Positions 5,606 to 64,000 of a stretch of 64,000 nt of DNA are shown one piece after another. The stretch is from Methylacidiphilum kamchatkense Kam1 (GTDB taxonomy: Bacteria; Verrucomicrobiota; Verrucomicrobiia; Methylacidiphilales; Methylacidiphilaceae): the NCBI RefSeq assembly GCF_007475525.1, contig NZ_CP037899.1, positions 744,001-808,000 on the forward strand, written 5' to 3'. Below the pieces are notes generated by a model. The model was not told the DNA's origin. It searched no databases and saw only the letters and a list, made by a program, of their open reading frames with translations. Made by a program: the position numbers and the translations under genes. The stretch's first letter is position 1, and the number at the start of each line of letters is the position of its first letter.

Positions 5606-5729
5606 GTGCTTCAAGTTGATATTTTTGCGGGTTGTAGGCTATTCCAAGAACTGGATTGCTAGCAGAACCATTTTTTTAAAAGTTTGAGGACTTTTCTTCC
5701 TTTCAATTATAGCGCGGCGCGGGAATACC

Positions 5730-5747
5730 CATCCCCTTCAGGGGATG
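5730..5747. repeat. Left-end subterminal hairpin of IS copy 1
   Basis: CATCCCC and GGGGATG are perfect 7-bp arms around a TTCA loop. This is the likely TnpA recognition hairpin at the left end. Confidence 0.65.
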
Positions 5748-5759
5748 TGATGAAAGCGC

Positions 5760-6170
5760 CTATTTACCTTGGCATTCATGTATGTATCGTCGGATAACCT
5801 CTGCTGACACGCTTCCCGCCGTACCCACATAGTACGCCTGCGTCCAAAGCTGCTCTCGTCCGCATGCCTTTTTGAGCCAGGGAAATTGCTCACGCAACTT
5901 CCTCGACGTATAGCCTTTCAGCAGGCCCACGATGGTGGCTGGCGCCCATCGAGGCGGCGCGGATACGAAGCAATGCACATGGTCGATGTCCATTTCCATG
6001 GCCAGAAGTGTAAATCCGTGTTGGACGCAACACTCCGCGATGAATCTCTTGCAGGCGCTCTCCACCTTGCCGGTGAGCACTTTCCGACGATACTTCGGAA
6101 TCCATACGAAGTGGTACGCAATTTGATAGTGCGTCCATCTGGTTTTTCCGGTTTGCAATGTATCGCTCAT
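5760..6170 (-). CDS. tnpA: IS200/IS605 Y1 transposase TnpA, copy 1
   Basis: 136 residues, the usual TnpA length. The HUH motif is H64-V65-H66 (DIDHVHCFVS) and the catalytic tyrosine is probably Y129 in VIRRYIHECQ. Start chosen at 6170 (MSDTLQTGKTRWTHYQIAYH), because an upstream extension to 6392 would run across the tnpB start and adds nothing family-like. The gene diverges from tnpB with 18 bases between start codons. It appears intact, so it may be active. Confidence 0.9.
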   Translation of the reverse strand: MSDTLQTGKTRWTHYQIAYHFVWIPKYRRKVLTGKVESACKRFIAECCVQHGFTLLAMEMDIDHVHCFVSAPPRWAPATIVGLLKGYTSRKLREQFPWLKKACGREQLWTQAYYVGTAGSVSAEVIRRYIHECQGK

Positions 6171-6188
6171 GTACCTAGAATAACAGGC

Positions 6189-7469
6189 ATGGAACGGGTA
6201 CGCATCCTGTCTCTCAAGGGAATTTCCAGGCGTTTGCAAGCCCTCATCCGGGATGGGCAGGCGGAGTCTGCTCGCGTCTGGACCCTGTGCCGGGACATGC
6301 ACCTTGCGGCCAGACAGAAAAACCAACCTTGGCCTGGCAAAAGGGAGTTTCACGAAGCCACCAGAGGTGGCAAATTCGCCCTGCACTCCCAAAGTGTTCA
6401 GCAGGTGTTCCGGGCATTTGACGCGGCGGTACAGTCAACCCGTGAGAATCGCAAAGCTGGATGCCGGGAAATCCGCTATCCATACAAGGACAAACGCTTT
6501 TACCCGCTGATGTGGCCGGCCCAGGCCATGTGTCTGGAAGAGAAGCGCATCGTGCTCCCGATGGGGCGCGGGCGTCACTCTTTGGTGCTTCCTCGTCCAG
6601 CGTGGCTGGAAAGTCCTCGCGCCTGCAAAATCGTCTGGAATGGTGTTCACGACGAACTGCATGTCAGCATACCGGAGACTGGTGGACCGCCGGATACCAC
6701 AGCGCCCGCCGAAAAACACGCCACGGTGGACCTTGGACAAATCCACCAAGCCGCAGTCGTCACGAATACCGGCGAAGCGCTGGTGGTATCCGGCAGAGGC
6801 ATCCGTTCCCTCAAGCGGTTGCACAGCAAACAACTGGGCGAAATCCAGAAAAAGCGAGCCAACTGCCAAAAAGGCTCGCGGCGCTGGCGCAAGCTCGGAC
6901 GGACACGTGCGAAGCTCACCCTGCGCCATAAACGCCGCGTCCGCGACCTGCGCCACAAAGGCACCCGGGCGGTGGTGGACTTCTGCGAGGACCGTGGCAT
7001 CGAAGCCCTTTTTGTCGGAAACCCGGACGGGGTTCGCCGCAAGCATGCTGGACGCCACCACAATCAGCGTATGAGCCAGTGGGAGTACGGCAAGGATATC
7101 CAGTATCTGGAACAAAAGTCGGAACAAGACCGCATCGCGTGCTTCACCGGGAGCGAAAGAGGTACGTCCAGCCGGTGTCCCGTATGCGGCCATCGCCACA
7201 AGCCCAAAGGGCGGATCTGGCGATGCAAAACCTGTGGATTTGAAGGCCACAGGGATATCGTGGGCGCTGTAAACATGCACCCCATCGCCTTCGGTCAAGG
7301 AGTGCCGTTCCCTCAACGCATCACGTATCTACGTCCGGGGAATCTCCGGCGTAGTAGTAGCCCGGACACGGGCCAACGTTGTCTAGCCGAATCGCAAGCG
7401 TCAAGCACCACGCCGGAGACGGCGCGGGTTCCCTCCGGGAGCAGCCCACGGCTTGCGATATGTGGTTAG
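6189..7469 (+). CDS. tnpB: TnpB RNA-guided nuclease of the IS605 element, copy 1
   Basis: 426 residues from ATG 6189. Upstream extension would be antisense to tnpA and is rejected. RuvC-I Asp is D181 (ATVDLG), the RuvC-III Asp is D356 (GHRDIVGAVN), and the zinc finger is C330-C333-C346-C349. At the RuvC-II position, where most TnpBs have E-D/N-L, this one reads VGNPDGV (276-282); the neighbouring QWEYG carries E299. The last ~65 residues are low in structure and rich in S, P, T and R, which fits an overlapping omega-RNA. TnpB proteins use that RNA to cleave DNA next to the element's insertion motif. Confidence 0.87.
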   Translation: MERVRILSLKGISRRLQALIRDGQAESARVWTLCRDMHLAARQKNQPWPGKREFHEATRGGKFALHSQSVQQVFRAFDAAVQSTRENRKAGCREIRYPYKDKRFYPLMWPAQAMCLEEKRIVLPMGRGRHSLVLPRPAWLESPRACKIVWNGVHDELHVSIPETGGPPDTTAPAEKHATVDLGQIHQAAVVTNTGEALVVSGRGIRSLKRLHSKQLGEIQKKRANCQKGSRRWRKLGRTRAKLTLRHKRRVRDLRHKGTRAVVDFCEDRGIEALFVGNPDGVRRKHAGRHHNQRMSQWEYGKDIQYLEQKSEQDRIACFTGSERGTSSRCPVCGHRHKPKGRIWRCKTCGFEGHRDIVGAVNMHPIAFGQGVPFPQRITYLRPGNLRRSSSPDTGQRCLAESQASSTTPETARVPSGSSPRLAICG

Positions 7470-24552: not shown

Positions 24553-24582
24553 CTTTCAATTATAGCGCGGCGCGGGAATACC

Positions 24583-24600
24583 CATCCCCTTCAGGGGATG
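24583..24600. repeat. Left-end subterminal hairpin of IS copy 2
   Basis: Same 7-bp hairpin (CATCCCC / GGGGATG) as in copy 1. Confidence 0.6.
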
Positions 24601-24612
24601 TGATGAAAGCGC

Positions 24613-25023
24613 CTATTTACCTTGGCATTCATGTATGTATCGTCGGATAACCTCTGCTGACACGCTTCCCGCCGTACCCACATAGTACGCCTGCGTCCAA
24701 AGCTGCTCTCGTCCGCATGCCTTTTTGAGCCAGGGAAATTGCTCACGCAACTTCCTCGACGTATAGCCTTTCAGCAGGCCCACGATGGTGGCTGGCGCCC
24801 ATCGAGGCGGCGCGGATACGAAGCAATGCACATGGTCGATGTCCATTTCCATGGCCAGAAGTGTAAATCCGTGTTGGACGCAACACTCCGCGATGAATCT
24901 CTTGCAGGCGCTCTCCACCTTGCCGGTGAGCACTTTCCGACGATACTTCGGAATCCATACGAAGTGGTACGCAATTTGATAGTGCGTCCATCTGGTTTTT
25001 CCGGTTTGCAATGTATCGCTCAT
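24613..25023 (-). CDS. tnpA: IS200/IS605 Y1 transposase TnpA, copy 2
   Basis: 136 residues, identical in translation to the first copy, with H64-V65-H66 and Y129 intact. Start taken at 25023 for the same reasons. It diverges from tnpB by 18 bases. Confidence 0.9.
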   Translation of the reverse strand: MSDTLQTGKTRWTHYQIAYHFVWIPKYRRKVLTGKVESACKRFIAECCVQHGFTLLAMEMDIDHVHCFVSAPPRWAPATIVGLLKGYTSRKLREQFPWLKKACGREQLWTQAYYVGTAGSVSAEVIRRYIHECQGK

Positions 25024-25041
25024 GTACCTAGAATAACAGGC

Positions 25042-26322
25042 ATGGAACGGGTACGCATCCTGTCTCTCAAGGGAATTTCCAGGCGTTTGCAAGCCCTCAT
25101 CCGGGATGGGCAGGCGGAGTCTGCTCGCGTCTGGACCCTGTGCCGGGACATGCACCTTGCGGCCAGACAGAAAAACCAACCTTGGCCTGGCAAAAGGGAG
25201 TTTCACGAAGCCACCAGAGGTGGCAAATTCGCCCTGCACTCCCAAAGTGTTCAGCAGGTGTTCCGGGCATTTGACGCGGCGGTACAGTCAACCCGTGAGA
25301 ATCGCAAAGCTGGATGCCGGGAAATCCGCTATCCATACAAGGACAAACGCTTTTACCCGCTGATGTGGCCGGCCCAGGCCATGTGTCTGGAAGAGAAGCG
25401 CATCGTGCTCCCGATGGGGCGCGGGCGTCACTCTTTGGTGCTTCCTCGTCCAGCGTGGCTGGAAAGTCCTCGCGCCTGCAAAATCGTCTGGAATGGTGTT
25501 CACGACGAACTGCATGTCAGCATACCGGAGACTGGTGGACCGCCGGATACCACAGCGCCCGCCGAAAAACACGCCACGGTGGACCTTGGACAAATCCACC
25601 AAGCCGCAGTCGTCACGAATACCGGCGAAGCGCTGGTGGTATCCGGCAGAGGCATCCGTTCCCTCAAGCGGTTGCACAGCAAACAACTGGGCGAAATCCA
25701 GAAAAAGCGAGCCAACTGCCAAAAAGGCTCGCGGCGCTGGCGCAAGCTCGGACGGACACGTGCGAAGCTCACCCTGCGCCATAAACGCCGCGTCCGCGAC
25801 CTGCGCCACAAAGGCACCCGGGCGGTGGTGGACTTCTGCGAGGACCGTGGCATCGAAGCCCTTTTTGTCGGAAACCCGGACGGGGTTCGCCGCAAGCATG
25901 CTGGACGCCACCACAATCAGCGTATGAGCCAGTGGGAGTACGGCAAGGATATCCAGTATCTGGAACAAAAGTCGGAACAAGACCGCATCGCGTGCTTCAC
26001 CGGGAGCGAAAGAGGTACGTCCAGCCGGTGTCCCGTATGCGGCCATCGCCACAAGCCCAAAGGGCGGATCTGGCGATGCAAAACCTGTGGATTTGAAGGC
26101 CACAGGGATATCGTGGGCGCTGTAAACATGCACCCCATCGCCTTCGGTCAAGGAGTGCCGTTCCCTCAACGCATCACGTATCTACGTCTGGGGAATCTCC
26201 GGCGTAGTAGTAGCCCGGACACGGGCCAACGTTGTCTAGCCGAATCGCAAGCGTCAAGCACCACGCCGGAGACGGCGCGGGTTCCCTCCGGGAGCAGCCC
26301 ACGGCTTGCGATATGTGGTTAG
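25042..26322 (+). CDS. tnpB: TnpB RNA-guided nuclease, copy 2
   Basis: 426 residues, identical to copy 1 except for Leu in place of Pro in the low-complexity tail (TYLRLGN). Catalytic D181 and D356, the VGNPDGV variant at RuvC-II and the four zinc cysteines are unchanged. The substitution lies where the omega-RNA probably overlaps the gene, so it may alter RNA rather than protein function. Confidence 0.87.
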   Translation: MERVRILSLKGISRRLQALIRDGQAESARVWTLCRDMHLAARQKNQPWPGKREFHEATRGGKFALHSQSVQQVFRAFDAAVQSTRENRKAGCREIRYPYKDKRFYPLMWPAQAMCLEEKRIVLPMGRGRHSLVLPRPAWLESPRACKIVWNGVHDELHVSIPETGGPPDTTAPAEKHATVDLGQIHQAAVVTNTGEALVVSGRGIRSLKRLHSKQLGEIQKKRANCQKGSRRWRKLGRTRAKLTLRHKRRVRDLRHKGTRAVVDFCEDRGIEALFVGNPDGVRRKHAGRHHNQRMSQWEYGKDIQYLEQKSEQDRIACFTGSERGTSSRCPVCGHRHKPKGRIWRCKTCGFEGHRDIVGAVNMHPIAFGQGVPFPQRITYLRLGNLRRSSSPDTGQRCLAESQASSTTPETARVPSGSSPRLAICG

Positions 26323-48365: not shown

Positions 48366-48971
48366 ATGAGCATCAATGGATTTGGGGTAATGGCAAGGAA
48401 AGTGGGAATGACCCAACTGTTTGATTCTAAAGGTAGATTATGTCCTCTGACGGTTCTGGTTGTAGAACCAAACGTGGTGGTACGATTTAATAAAGAGGAT
48501 AATAATACTGTCCGCTTGCAAGTGGGTTTTGAAGAAGTAGCAGAGAGAAAGGTAAGCAAGCCTCTTTTGGGACATTATAAGAAAAACGGGATCAGCCCTC
48601 GGAGGTTCCTAAAAGAATTTGTATTTGAGTCAGAAAAACTGTGGCAGCCTGGCCAAACACTCTCTGTAAGTGATTTCGAAGAAGGTGAAAAAGTAGACGT
48701 TATTGGAATTACTAAAGGGAAGGGATTTCAAGGAGTAATAAGAAAACATGGATTTGCAGGTCAACCTGCCTCTCATGGGTCCAAAACCCATAGGAGAAAT
48801 GGGGCTATTGGGGAGAGATCCTTCCCAGGAAGAGTATTTAGAAACCAAGGGATGCCAGGCCATATGGGAAGAAAACGGGTAACCATACAAAATTTGGATC
48901 TTTTTAAAATTCTTCCTGAAGACAATGCGCTTCTGGTGACTGGGAGCATCCCTGGGGCTAGGGGGATGTAG
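48366..48971 (+). CDS. rplC: 50S ribosomal protein L3
   Basis: 201 residues. GVMARKVGMTQLFDSKGRLCPLTVL at the N-terminus and the GHRNNG-like loop region (HGSKTHRRNGAIGERSFPGRVF with MPGHMGRKRVT) are typical. It binds 23S rRNA near the peptidyl-transferase centre. No clear SD is seen, and ATG at MARKVG is a possible alternative start. Confidence 0.94.
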   Translation: MSINGFGVMARKVGMTQLFDSKGRLCPLTVLVVEPNVVVRFNKEDNNTVRLQVGFEEVAERKVSKPLLGHYKKNGISPRRFLKEFVFESEKLWQPGQTLSVSDFEEGEKVDVIGITKGKGFQGVIRKHGFAGQPASHGSKTHRRNGAIGERSFPGRVFRNQGMPGHMGRKRVTIQNLDLFKILPEDNALLVTGSIPGARGM

Positions 48972-49040
48972 TCATTGTTCGCAAAGCTATAAAAGGGCAA
49001 GCATCGAACAACAAGTAAGTAGATAACCAAAGGTTTCGCC

Positions 49041-49990: not shown

Positions 49991-50841
49991 ATGGGAATAA
50001 AAAGTTTTCGACCTTTGACACCAACTTTGCGTTTTACAGCGTTGGATGATTTTTCAGACATTACCAATTGGGAGCCCGAATGGTCTCTAACCGAACCATA
50101 CAAAAAGACGGGTGGAAGAAACAACTATGGAAGGGTTACGGCTCGTCATAGAGGGGGGGGCATAAGCAACGTTATAGGATTATTGATTTTAAAAGGAACA
50201 AGTTTGGAATACCAGCCGTAGTAGAGAGTATAGAATATGATCCAATACGAACGGCTCGAATTGCTTTGCTGAAGTATGAAGATCAAGAAAAAAGGTATAT
50301 TATTGCTCCACAGGAACTGAAAGTGGGTAGTCGAGTGATTAGTGGTCCAGAGGCTCCACCAGAAGTTGGGAATGCTTTGCCTCTAAAGAACATTCCTTCA
50401 GGTCTTCCGATATACAATATAGAGTTGGTACCTGGAAAAGGAGGACAGCTCGTTCGCTCTGCTGGAAGCAGTGCTCGAATGATGGGTTTAGATAAAGAAT
50501 ATGCCATTGTGAAGTTGCCTTCTGGCGAAGTAAGAAAAATTTTGTCTGAATGCTATGCAACGATTGGACAAGTCAGCAACCCGGATCATTTTAACAAATC
50601 TCTTGGAAAAGCCGGTAGAACAAGATGGCTTGGTTGGAGACCTCGAGTCAGAGGGGTTGCCATGAATCCAGTAGATCATCCTAATGGAGGGGGACAAGGA
50701 AAAAGTAAAGGAGGAGGAGGATGGCAACAGCTGGAATCTCCATGGGGGAAACCGGCCAAAGGCAAAAAGACAAGGAAAAAAAGGAAAAATTCTTCGAGGT
50801 TTATTGTAGAAAGACGGCCTAAGAAAAAGAAGAAAAAGTAA
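49991..50841 (+). CDS. rplB: 50S ribosomal protein L2, frame broken in a G8 run
   Basis: The protein starts at ATG 49991 ([15 protein letters not shown]) and is read to RHRGG at a run of eight G (50153-50160). A ninth G gives [16 protein letters not shown], the standard L2 text, and a 283-residue protein. The second frame then holds [16 protein letters not shown] with the functional His region. L2 is essential for peptidyl transfer, so the break is almost certainly an assembly error in the homopolymer. Confidence 0.9.
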
Positions 50842-51141: not shown

Positions 51142-51479
51142 ATGGAAGTTCGGGCGGTATATAAAATGGCTAGGATTTCAGCGTTTAAATCTAGAGATGT
51201 TGCACGTTCCATAAAAGGGATGGATGCTAAAGAGGCTTTTAATCTGCTGGCATTCTATCCTAAGAAAGCGGCTCGGATTATACGAAAAACGCTTGGTTCG
51301 GCAATTGCCAATGCGGAAAATAATCACAATTTGAGGGTCCAAGATCTTTATGTCAAAGGGGTCTTTGTGGATGAAGGACCAACCTTTCGAAGGTATCAAC
51401 CAAAGGCTCGGGGAGTGCTGGGATTATAAGGAAGCGAACGAGTCATATTCAGGTGATTTTGGAAGAAAAAGAAAAATAA
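51142..51479 (+). CDS. rplV: 50S ribosomal protein L22, frame broken near the C-terminus
   Basis: Read straight, the gene stops at 51429 after QPKARGVLGL, about 17 residues short. One extra G in the four-G run at 51410-51413 restores KARGSAGIIRKRTSHIQVIL and a stop at 51479, giving 112 residues, the normal L22 length. The KRTSHI C-terminus is a conserved L22 feature, so the restored reading is convincing. L22 lines the exit tunnel. Confidence 0.88.
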
Positions 51480-63002: not shown

Positions 63003-63031
63003 TTGACATAAAATCTCCTCAAGAATAAAAT
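63003..63031 (+). promoter_or_regulatory. Strong sigma-70-type promoter for the hydrogenase operon
   Basis: TTGACA (63003-63008), exactly 17 bases, then TAAAAT (63026-63031). The -35 is perfect and the -10 differs by one base. The small membrane gene starts 23 bases downstream. Confidence 0.65.
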
Positions 63032-63053
63032 CAGAAACGGAAGTGAACGGTAT

Positions 63054-63191
63054 GTGCGTCAAAAAAAGGAGAAATTCAAAGATGAAATTGTGGCGTTGTC
63101 TTTTTTAGTGTTGTTTGCGTGGGTGATCGTTGCAATTGTGATTCCGTCTTTTCCTGGGTTTGTTAGATATTTAAGAATACGACAAATGTGA
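63054..63191 (+). CDS. 45-residue single-pass membrane peptide ahead of the hydrogenase
   Basis: GTG start at 63054 with GGAAG at 63039-63043, stop TGA at 63189-63191. The peptide begins MRQKKEKFKDE, a basic cytoplasmic start, then one strong membrane helix (VALSFLVLFAWVIVAIVI), then PSFPGFVRYLRIRQM with basic residues. It is the first gene after the promoter and 78 bases before the hydrogenase start. The context suggests a membrane anchor or small partner for the hydrogenase. I know no named family for it. Confidence 0.6.
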   Translation: MRQKKEKFKDEIVALSFLVLFAWVIVAIVIPSFPGFVRYLRIRQM

Positions 63192-63211
63192 AGCAGGAGA
63201 AAAAAAGAAAA

Positions 63212-63249
63212 GTTCGGCTACACGGGGCATATAGAAACCCAAGCCGAAC
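63212..63249 (+). other. Stem-loop between the membrane peptide and hydrogenase genes
   Basis: GTTCGGCT (63212-63219) and AGCCGAAC (63242-63249) form a perfect 8-bp stem around a 22-base loop. Almost identical CAGGAG-A-rich sequences stand on each side (63194 and 63253). The hairpin ends four bases before the AGGAG (63254-63258) of the hydrogenase gene, so it may protect the mRNA or tune translation. No T tract follows, so a terminator is unlikely. Confidence 0.5.
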
Positions 63250-63269
63250 GAACAGGAGAAAAAAAAGAA

Positions 63270-64000
63270 ATGAACAATACTGAACAGTCTGTTCAATCAA
63301 AGGAGCTTGAGGTTCATATATTATGGATCAATGCTGGACTTTCTTGTGACGGAGACTCTGTTGCCTTGACTGCTGCTAGCCAGCCTTCCATAGAAGACTT
63401 AGTGCTTGGGGTATTCCCGGCTCTTCCTAAAGTACAGTTTCATTGGCCGCTTATAGATTATCACACGGGCGATGATTTTATCGAATGGTTTTTTAAAGCG
63501 GACCGTGGGGAAGTTGACCCCTTTATTTTAGTGGTTGAGGGTTCCATTCCGAACGAAAAAATAAAGGCTGAGGGATACTGGGCTGGATTTGGAAATGATC
63601 CTTCCACCGGTCAACCCATGACGACCAGCCAATGGATTGATCGGTTGGCTCCTAAGGCATGGGCGGTTGTTGCTGCGGGAACCTGTGCGACCTATGGTGG
63701 AGTTCATGCGATGGCTGGCAATCCGACAGGGGCGATGGGTCTTCCAGACTATCTAGGATGGGAGTGGAAATCGAAGGCAGGAATTCCTATTGTTTGTGTC
63801 CCCGGCTGTCCTATCCAGCCCGATAATCTTTCTGAAACTTTTCTTTATCTCCTTTATCAAGCTGCTGGGAAAGCACCAATGATCCCTCTTGATGAAAACC
63901 TGCGACCTAGTTGGCTTTTTGAACAAACCGTTCATGAAGGCTGTGATCGGGGAGGGTATTATGAGCAAGGACAATTTGTTAACGAGTATGGGGAAAAGGA
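63270..64000 (+). CDS. Group 1h/5 NiFe hydrogenase small subunit, 3' part outside window
   Basis: 243 codons from ATG 63270 to the window edge, with AGGAG at 63254-63258. It carries the electron-transfer iron-sulfur clusters of an H2-oxidising enzyme. There is no Tat signal, unlike most group 1 uptake enzymes, so the protein stays inside the cell. Proximal-cluster ligands are C26, C139 and C180; the fourth is D29 (LSCDGDS) instead of Cys, the hallmark of the actinobacterial-type (1h/5) enzymes. H222 and C225 (VHEGCDRGG) belong to the distal cluster. These enzymes can use trace H2 and tolerate oxygen. Confidence 0.9.
   Translation, partial: MNNTEQSVQSKELEVHILWINAGLSCDGDSVALTAASQPSIEDLVLGVFPALPKVQFHWPLIDYHTGDDFIEWFFKADRGEVDPFILVVEGSIPNEKIKAEGYWAGFGNDPSTGQPMTTSQWIDRLAPKAWAVVAAGTCATYGGVHAMAGNPTGAMGLPDYLGWEWKSKAGIPIVCVPGCPIQPDNLSETFLYLLYQAAGKAPMIPLDENLRPSWLFEQTVHEGCDRGGYYEQGQFVNEYGEK

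Follow-up and report, generated by a model that had tools for sequence, protein, structure and literature searches.

A candidate small membrane-peptide gene ahead of the group 1h [NiFe]-hydrogenase genes of Methylacidiphilum kamchatkense Kam1

The hydrogenase locus and its upstream region

The window analysed here is the whole stretch of 64,000 nucleotides from the thermophilic, acidophilic methanotroph Methylacidiphilum kamchatkense Kam1 (NZ_CP037899.1, positions 744,001 to 808,000 of the forward strand), and all coordinates are window positions unless stated otherwise. At its end lies hhyS (63270..64000, plus strand, extending past the window), which encodes the 351-aa small subunit of a group 1h [NiFe]-hydrogenase, an enzyme that oxidises atmospheric H2; the best solved relative is 5aa5_A (E 1e-173). 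The hhyS ATG is preceded by an AGGAG at 11 nt, and hhyL follows hhyS directly. Both HhyS and HhyL are homologous to the actinobacterial-type group 1h enzyme, and the Kam1 hydrogenase has been classed as 1h in print (PMC6688271). Among 388 genomes of the phylum, an hhyS this close was found only in Kam1 and in a comparison genome (G004; 2,476,671 bp), the only other Methylacidiphilum genome examined that has this hydrogenase. This genome is probably that of M. fumariolicum SolV, in which the enzyme has likewise been reported (PMC5364354). Strain Phi carries the 1h genes as well (PMC8498564). Elsewhere in the window, two copies of a 1.6-kb element (5705-7330 and 24558-26183) align with equal scores to the same place in G004, and this element is probably an insertion sequence.

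The Fe-S partner gene (HhyE / NifU-like), which is usual next to hhyL elsewhere and is not strictly defining, is absent at the locus; the absence of HhyE in Kam1 has been published (PMC6688271). A search for a NifU-like protein in Kam1 and G004, run without a positive control, gave no match. The first-pass annotation had noted that group 1h hydrogenases lack the usual cytochrome b anchor, and the gap is real: the SolV Hyd-1h is membrane-associated with no predicted helix and no known partner or anchor (PMC7174314). This association is weak and important for affinity to H2, the affinity was lower after purification, and the purified enzyme gave two bands only, of 65 and 40 kDa (PMC7174314); a peptide of 4 kDa could have been missed on such a gel. 

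The genes after hhyL are convergent, making hhySL a closed unit of which a short peptide frame ahead of hhyS is the only possible extra member. Two hypothetical, unusual membrane proteins, MfumV2_0985-6, have been described near the SolV Hyd-1h (PMC7174314). They are probably the products of L083:15670-15927 and L083:15988-16317, which encode small membrane proteins with no Pfam or NCBIfam match; this pair lies more than 5 kb downstream of hhySL, beyond the convergent genes and therefore outside the hhySL transcript. In the same region, a gene for a 945-aa protein that resembles outer-membrane receptors (L083:12662-15499; named by eye) is open in Kam1, and interrupted and partly missing in G004.

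Ahead of hhyS lies the promoter-like sequence TTGACA-17-TAAAAT (63003..63031, plus strand), which matches the consensus at 11 of 12 positions. It is the sole plus-strand site of such quality in the window, with a chance expectation of approximately 0.2% per 300 nt. The -35 element and the next 20 nt are identical in G004, where the -10 element reads TAACCT and the site overall matches at 9 of 12 positions. The near-consensus promoter proposed from the sequence alone is thus present, and the proposed order, in which a promoter-like sequence is followed by a short hydrophobic frame and then by hhyS, is borne out.

The short hydrophobic frame and its interruption in the Kam1 assembly

The short gene originally proposed was a 45-codon frame opening with GTG (63054..63191, plus strand), with its own Shine-Dalgarno sequence and one membrane helix. 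The frame exists and encodes one strong helix (maximum 19-residue hydropathy of 3.14), but the GTG is preceded just by a weak GGAAG. A strong AGGAG does lie inside the frame (63067-63071), but the start codon it serves is the ATG at 63082, which is read in a different frame. The GTG is replaced by CTG in G004, where an additional T brings the 45-codon frame to a stop after 18 codons. The 45-codon frame is therefore not conserved in the relative with the same hydrogenase, and this comparison rules it out as a gene model.

The ATG at 63082 opens a frame that fares better. Its AGGAG (63067..63071, plus strand) stands 10 nt upstream and is identical in G004, where the frame runs for 36 codons. The product, MKLWRYLFLILFAWVIVAIVIPSFPGFVRYLRIRQM (36 aa), has a maximum 19-residue hydropathy of 2.6 and one transmembrane helix, as judged by hydropathy rather than by a dedicated predictor; no family match was found in Pfam or NCBIfam. 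The last 29 codons match the C-terminus of the 45-codon frame with 97% identity, and the stop position is common to both frames, being TAA in G004 and TGA in Kam1. The earlier proposal of a short membrane peptide as the first gene of the hhySL transcript thus survives as an ATG-led frame with a good Shine-Dalgarno sequence in the sister species. In Kam1, the corresponding interval (63082..63191, plus strand) is a probable small membrane-peptide gene, the assembly copy of which is interrupted by a one-base deletion. The differences between the two genomes in this frame are limited to a T run and a few substitutions.

The Kam1 ATG frame meets a TAG (63106-63108) after 8 codons because one T is missing from this run (63101..63106, plus strand), which is T6 in Kam1 and T7 in G004. 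The Kam1 genome (2,202,032 bp) was assembled with HGAP3 from PacBio data alone (PMC6688271). Within the window, rplC (48950-49015), rplB (50155-50161), rplV (51402-51426) and secY (57590) each lack one base that G004 has, and each gene is split as a result. In secY, residues 1-110 lie in one frame and residues 111-496 in the next, both at 99-100% identity, and further conserved genes are split by single missing bases within the same 76 kb. As rplB, rplC, rplV and secY are essential, assembly error is the simplest cause of their splits, which are almost surely errors. The missing T in the short peptide gene is most likely an error of the same kind. Short homopolymers are only slightly over-represented across the assembly (5 vs 3 by a strict count), so that the case for an error depends on the essential genes that are split.

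Were the T6 genuine, the Kam1 copy of the peptide gene would be broken, and a gene that is real in SolV would here be decaying as dispensable. The T6 is present in the assembly despite a reported coverage of 489-fold (PMC6688271), and one-base homopolymer differences occur outside genes too. A true break is nevertheless quite improbable, given that a living cell cannot lack the four essential genes that are split alike, that the authors of the Kam1 genome suspect a frameshift in hyhL to be an error because the draft genome has none (PMC6688271), and that the remainder of the 36-codon frame shows no signs of decay. Programmed frameshifting on the T run was also considered and rejected: a T6 followed by TAG makes a poor two-codon slippery site, and an error is the simpler explanation. 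With several essential genes split by one-base deletions, the Kam1 reference gene models need care.

Coding potential and the hhySL leader

Coding support for the 36-codon frame, drawn from two genomes, is moderate, and the frame is probably a gene. A Shine-Dalgarno sequence with an ATG frame of at least 30 codons is expected in approximately 1.3% of such 300-nt stretches by chance. A scan for Shine-Dalgarno-plus-start combinations outside long ORFs in the syntenic 80 kb of G004 returned ribosomal genes, one spurious frame and the peptide only. The substitution rate between Kam1 and G004 is 6.4% in the frame, 6.2% in hhyS and 13.9% in upstream non-coding DNA. Four of the seven changes in the frame fall at third positions, and the stop is swapped for another stop; this surplus of silent changes falls short of proof that the frame is coding (approximately 0.13 in a binomial estimate with an assumed silent share of 0.3). 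The spacer between the frame and hhyS is equally conserved (6.4%), and in its 3' half 58 nt are free of any change, as are 0.2% of such windows within hhyS and 5% across the whole 76 kb. The unchanged stretch could mean constraint on the RNA.

The spacer has a distinct structure. A purine-rich direct repeat, the first copy of which is CAGGAGAAAAAAAGAAAA (63194..63211, plus strand), begins directly after the peptide stop and recurs at 63253..63270 (plus strand), where it contains the AGGAG of hhyS. Between the two copies lies an intercistronic hairpin (63212..63249, plus strand; -16.1 kcal/mol, z -3.6), which is kept in G004 (-16.9, z -4.5). With CAGGAGAAAAAAAGAAA on either side of the conserved hairpin, the arrangement (63194-63270) resembles a ribosome site duplicated about a stem. 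The hairpin is unique in the genome, ruling out a mobile or repeated element, and an Rfam search of the leader found no element apart from the upstream tRNA.

These features bear on the main rival explanation, in which the 36-codon frame arose by chance within a conserved 5' leader of hhySL that is not translated. The leader would act as RNA, with the hairpin and the doubled Shine-Dalgarno-like repeat controlling stability or the loading of ribosomes on hhyS. The strong hairpin in both genomes, the AGGAG-A-rich repeat around it and a spacer as well conserved as the frame are consistent with such a leader, as is the high and constitutive expression of hhyS (PMC5364354). The leader has no Rfam family match, however, and the joint occurrence of a Shine-Dalgarno sequence, an ATG, 36 codons and a strong helix is improbable by chance, while the exchange of one stop codon for another also argues against an untranslated frame. 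We regard this explanation as a serious one, at somewhat less than even odds.

Alternatively, the frame may encode a leader peptide whose translation regulates hhyS, through coupling or attenuation, the product itself having no function. The arrangement, in which a hairpin and the ribosome site of hhyS come directly after a short frame, would suit this, but no T run follows the hairpin, which therefore lacks the form of an intrinsic terminator, and the frame contains no run of regulatory codons. In addition, hhySL expression was constant across the three conditions tested (PMC5364354), and a clear membrane helix would be superfluous in a leader. Regulation by a leader peptide is thus unlikely.

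Distribution and proposed role of the peptide

A search of 20 genomes with the peptide recovered it just in Kam1 and G004 and in none of the 18 further relatives; other hits had E values of 0.16 or worse. Small hydrophobic frames ahead of hhyS at 80 actinobacterial loci, examined with G004 as the positive control, were HypB pieces and unconvincing frames only, and no similar peptide was found ahead of hhyS in Cupriavidus or Methylocystis. This comparison covered Actinobacteria, Cupriavidus and Methylocystis, and left out the 1h loci of Chloroflexota and Acidobacteriota. HhyS and HhyL are shared with Cupriavidus necator (PDB 5aa5) and with the Mycobacterium Hhy (HhyS approximately 71-76% identical), whereas in Cupriavidus NifU-like and DUF5947 genes follow hhyL and no peptide precedes hhyS. 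The expectation that the short gene would recur ahead of small-subunit genes was thus not upheld in the other lineages that share this hydrogenase, and the peptide would be a lineage-specific solution.

The explanation we find best, with a probability of roughly 0.4, is a three-gene transcript encoding a single-helix peptide that would hold HhySL weakly at the membrane. We infer from the sequence a single transcription unit starting near 63038 and comprising the 36-codon gene (ATG 63082), hhyS and hhyL. In Kam1, the absence of a single T from the assembly splits the first of these, and a sequencing error is the most likely cause. The translated peptide would insert into the cytoplasmic membrane, its basic tail (RYLRIR) facing the cytoplasm, and, by contact with the otherwise soluble HhySL dimer, would keep the enzyme weakly at the membrane, a role that other tiny accessory membrane proteins play for respiratory enzymes. 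The peptide of G004 contains no Cys and no His, and thus no residues that ligate heme or Fe-S clusters; it cannot carry electrons or link the enzyme to quinone alone. At most, it would anchor or assemble the enzyme, and electrons would reach quinone by another route. Given that the frame is a gene, anchoring is its probable function. Against this explanation, the peptide was seen in only two closely related genomes, and none like it stands ahead of hhyS in Actinobacteria, Cupriavidus or Methylocystis, although the Mycobacterium Hhy is membrane-associated as well (PMC7174314).

Small single-helix accessory membrane proteins of approximately 30-50 residues that carry no cofactor are known from respiratory and transport complexes (CydX, KdpF and AcrZ), and for CydX and KdpF the gene lies in the same operon as the enzyme it serves. 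The candidate peptide is alike in size, in its one helix and in having no cofactor. In contrast, CydX, KdpF and AcrZ have been shown by experiment and attach to membrane-embedded complexes, whereas the partner here would be a soluble hydrogenase, and no sequence relation is claimed. A further parallel is HucM, an extra subunit that links the Mycobacterium group 2a hydrogenase Huc, which uses atmospheric H2, to the membrane. The candidate peptide would resemble it as an extra small membrane-linking subunit of an atmospheric-H2 hydrogenase, but HucM is far larger, scaffolds an oligomer and belongs to a different hydrogenase group.

A stronger reading is that the 36-residue peptide is an overlooked third subunit, and that the hold at the membrane gives the enzyme its affinity for atmospheric H2. 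This appears doubtful. Membrane contact matters, having been reported as important for the high H2 affinity in SolV (PMC7174314), and with a specific 36-codon frame now named in the putative hhySL transcript, the question of how the SolV group 1h hydrogenase contacts the membrane becomes directly testable.
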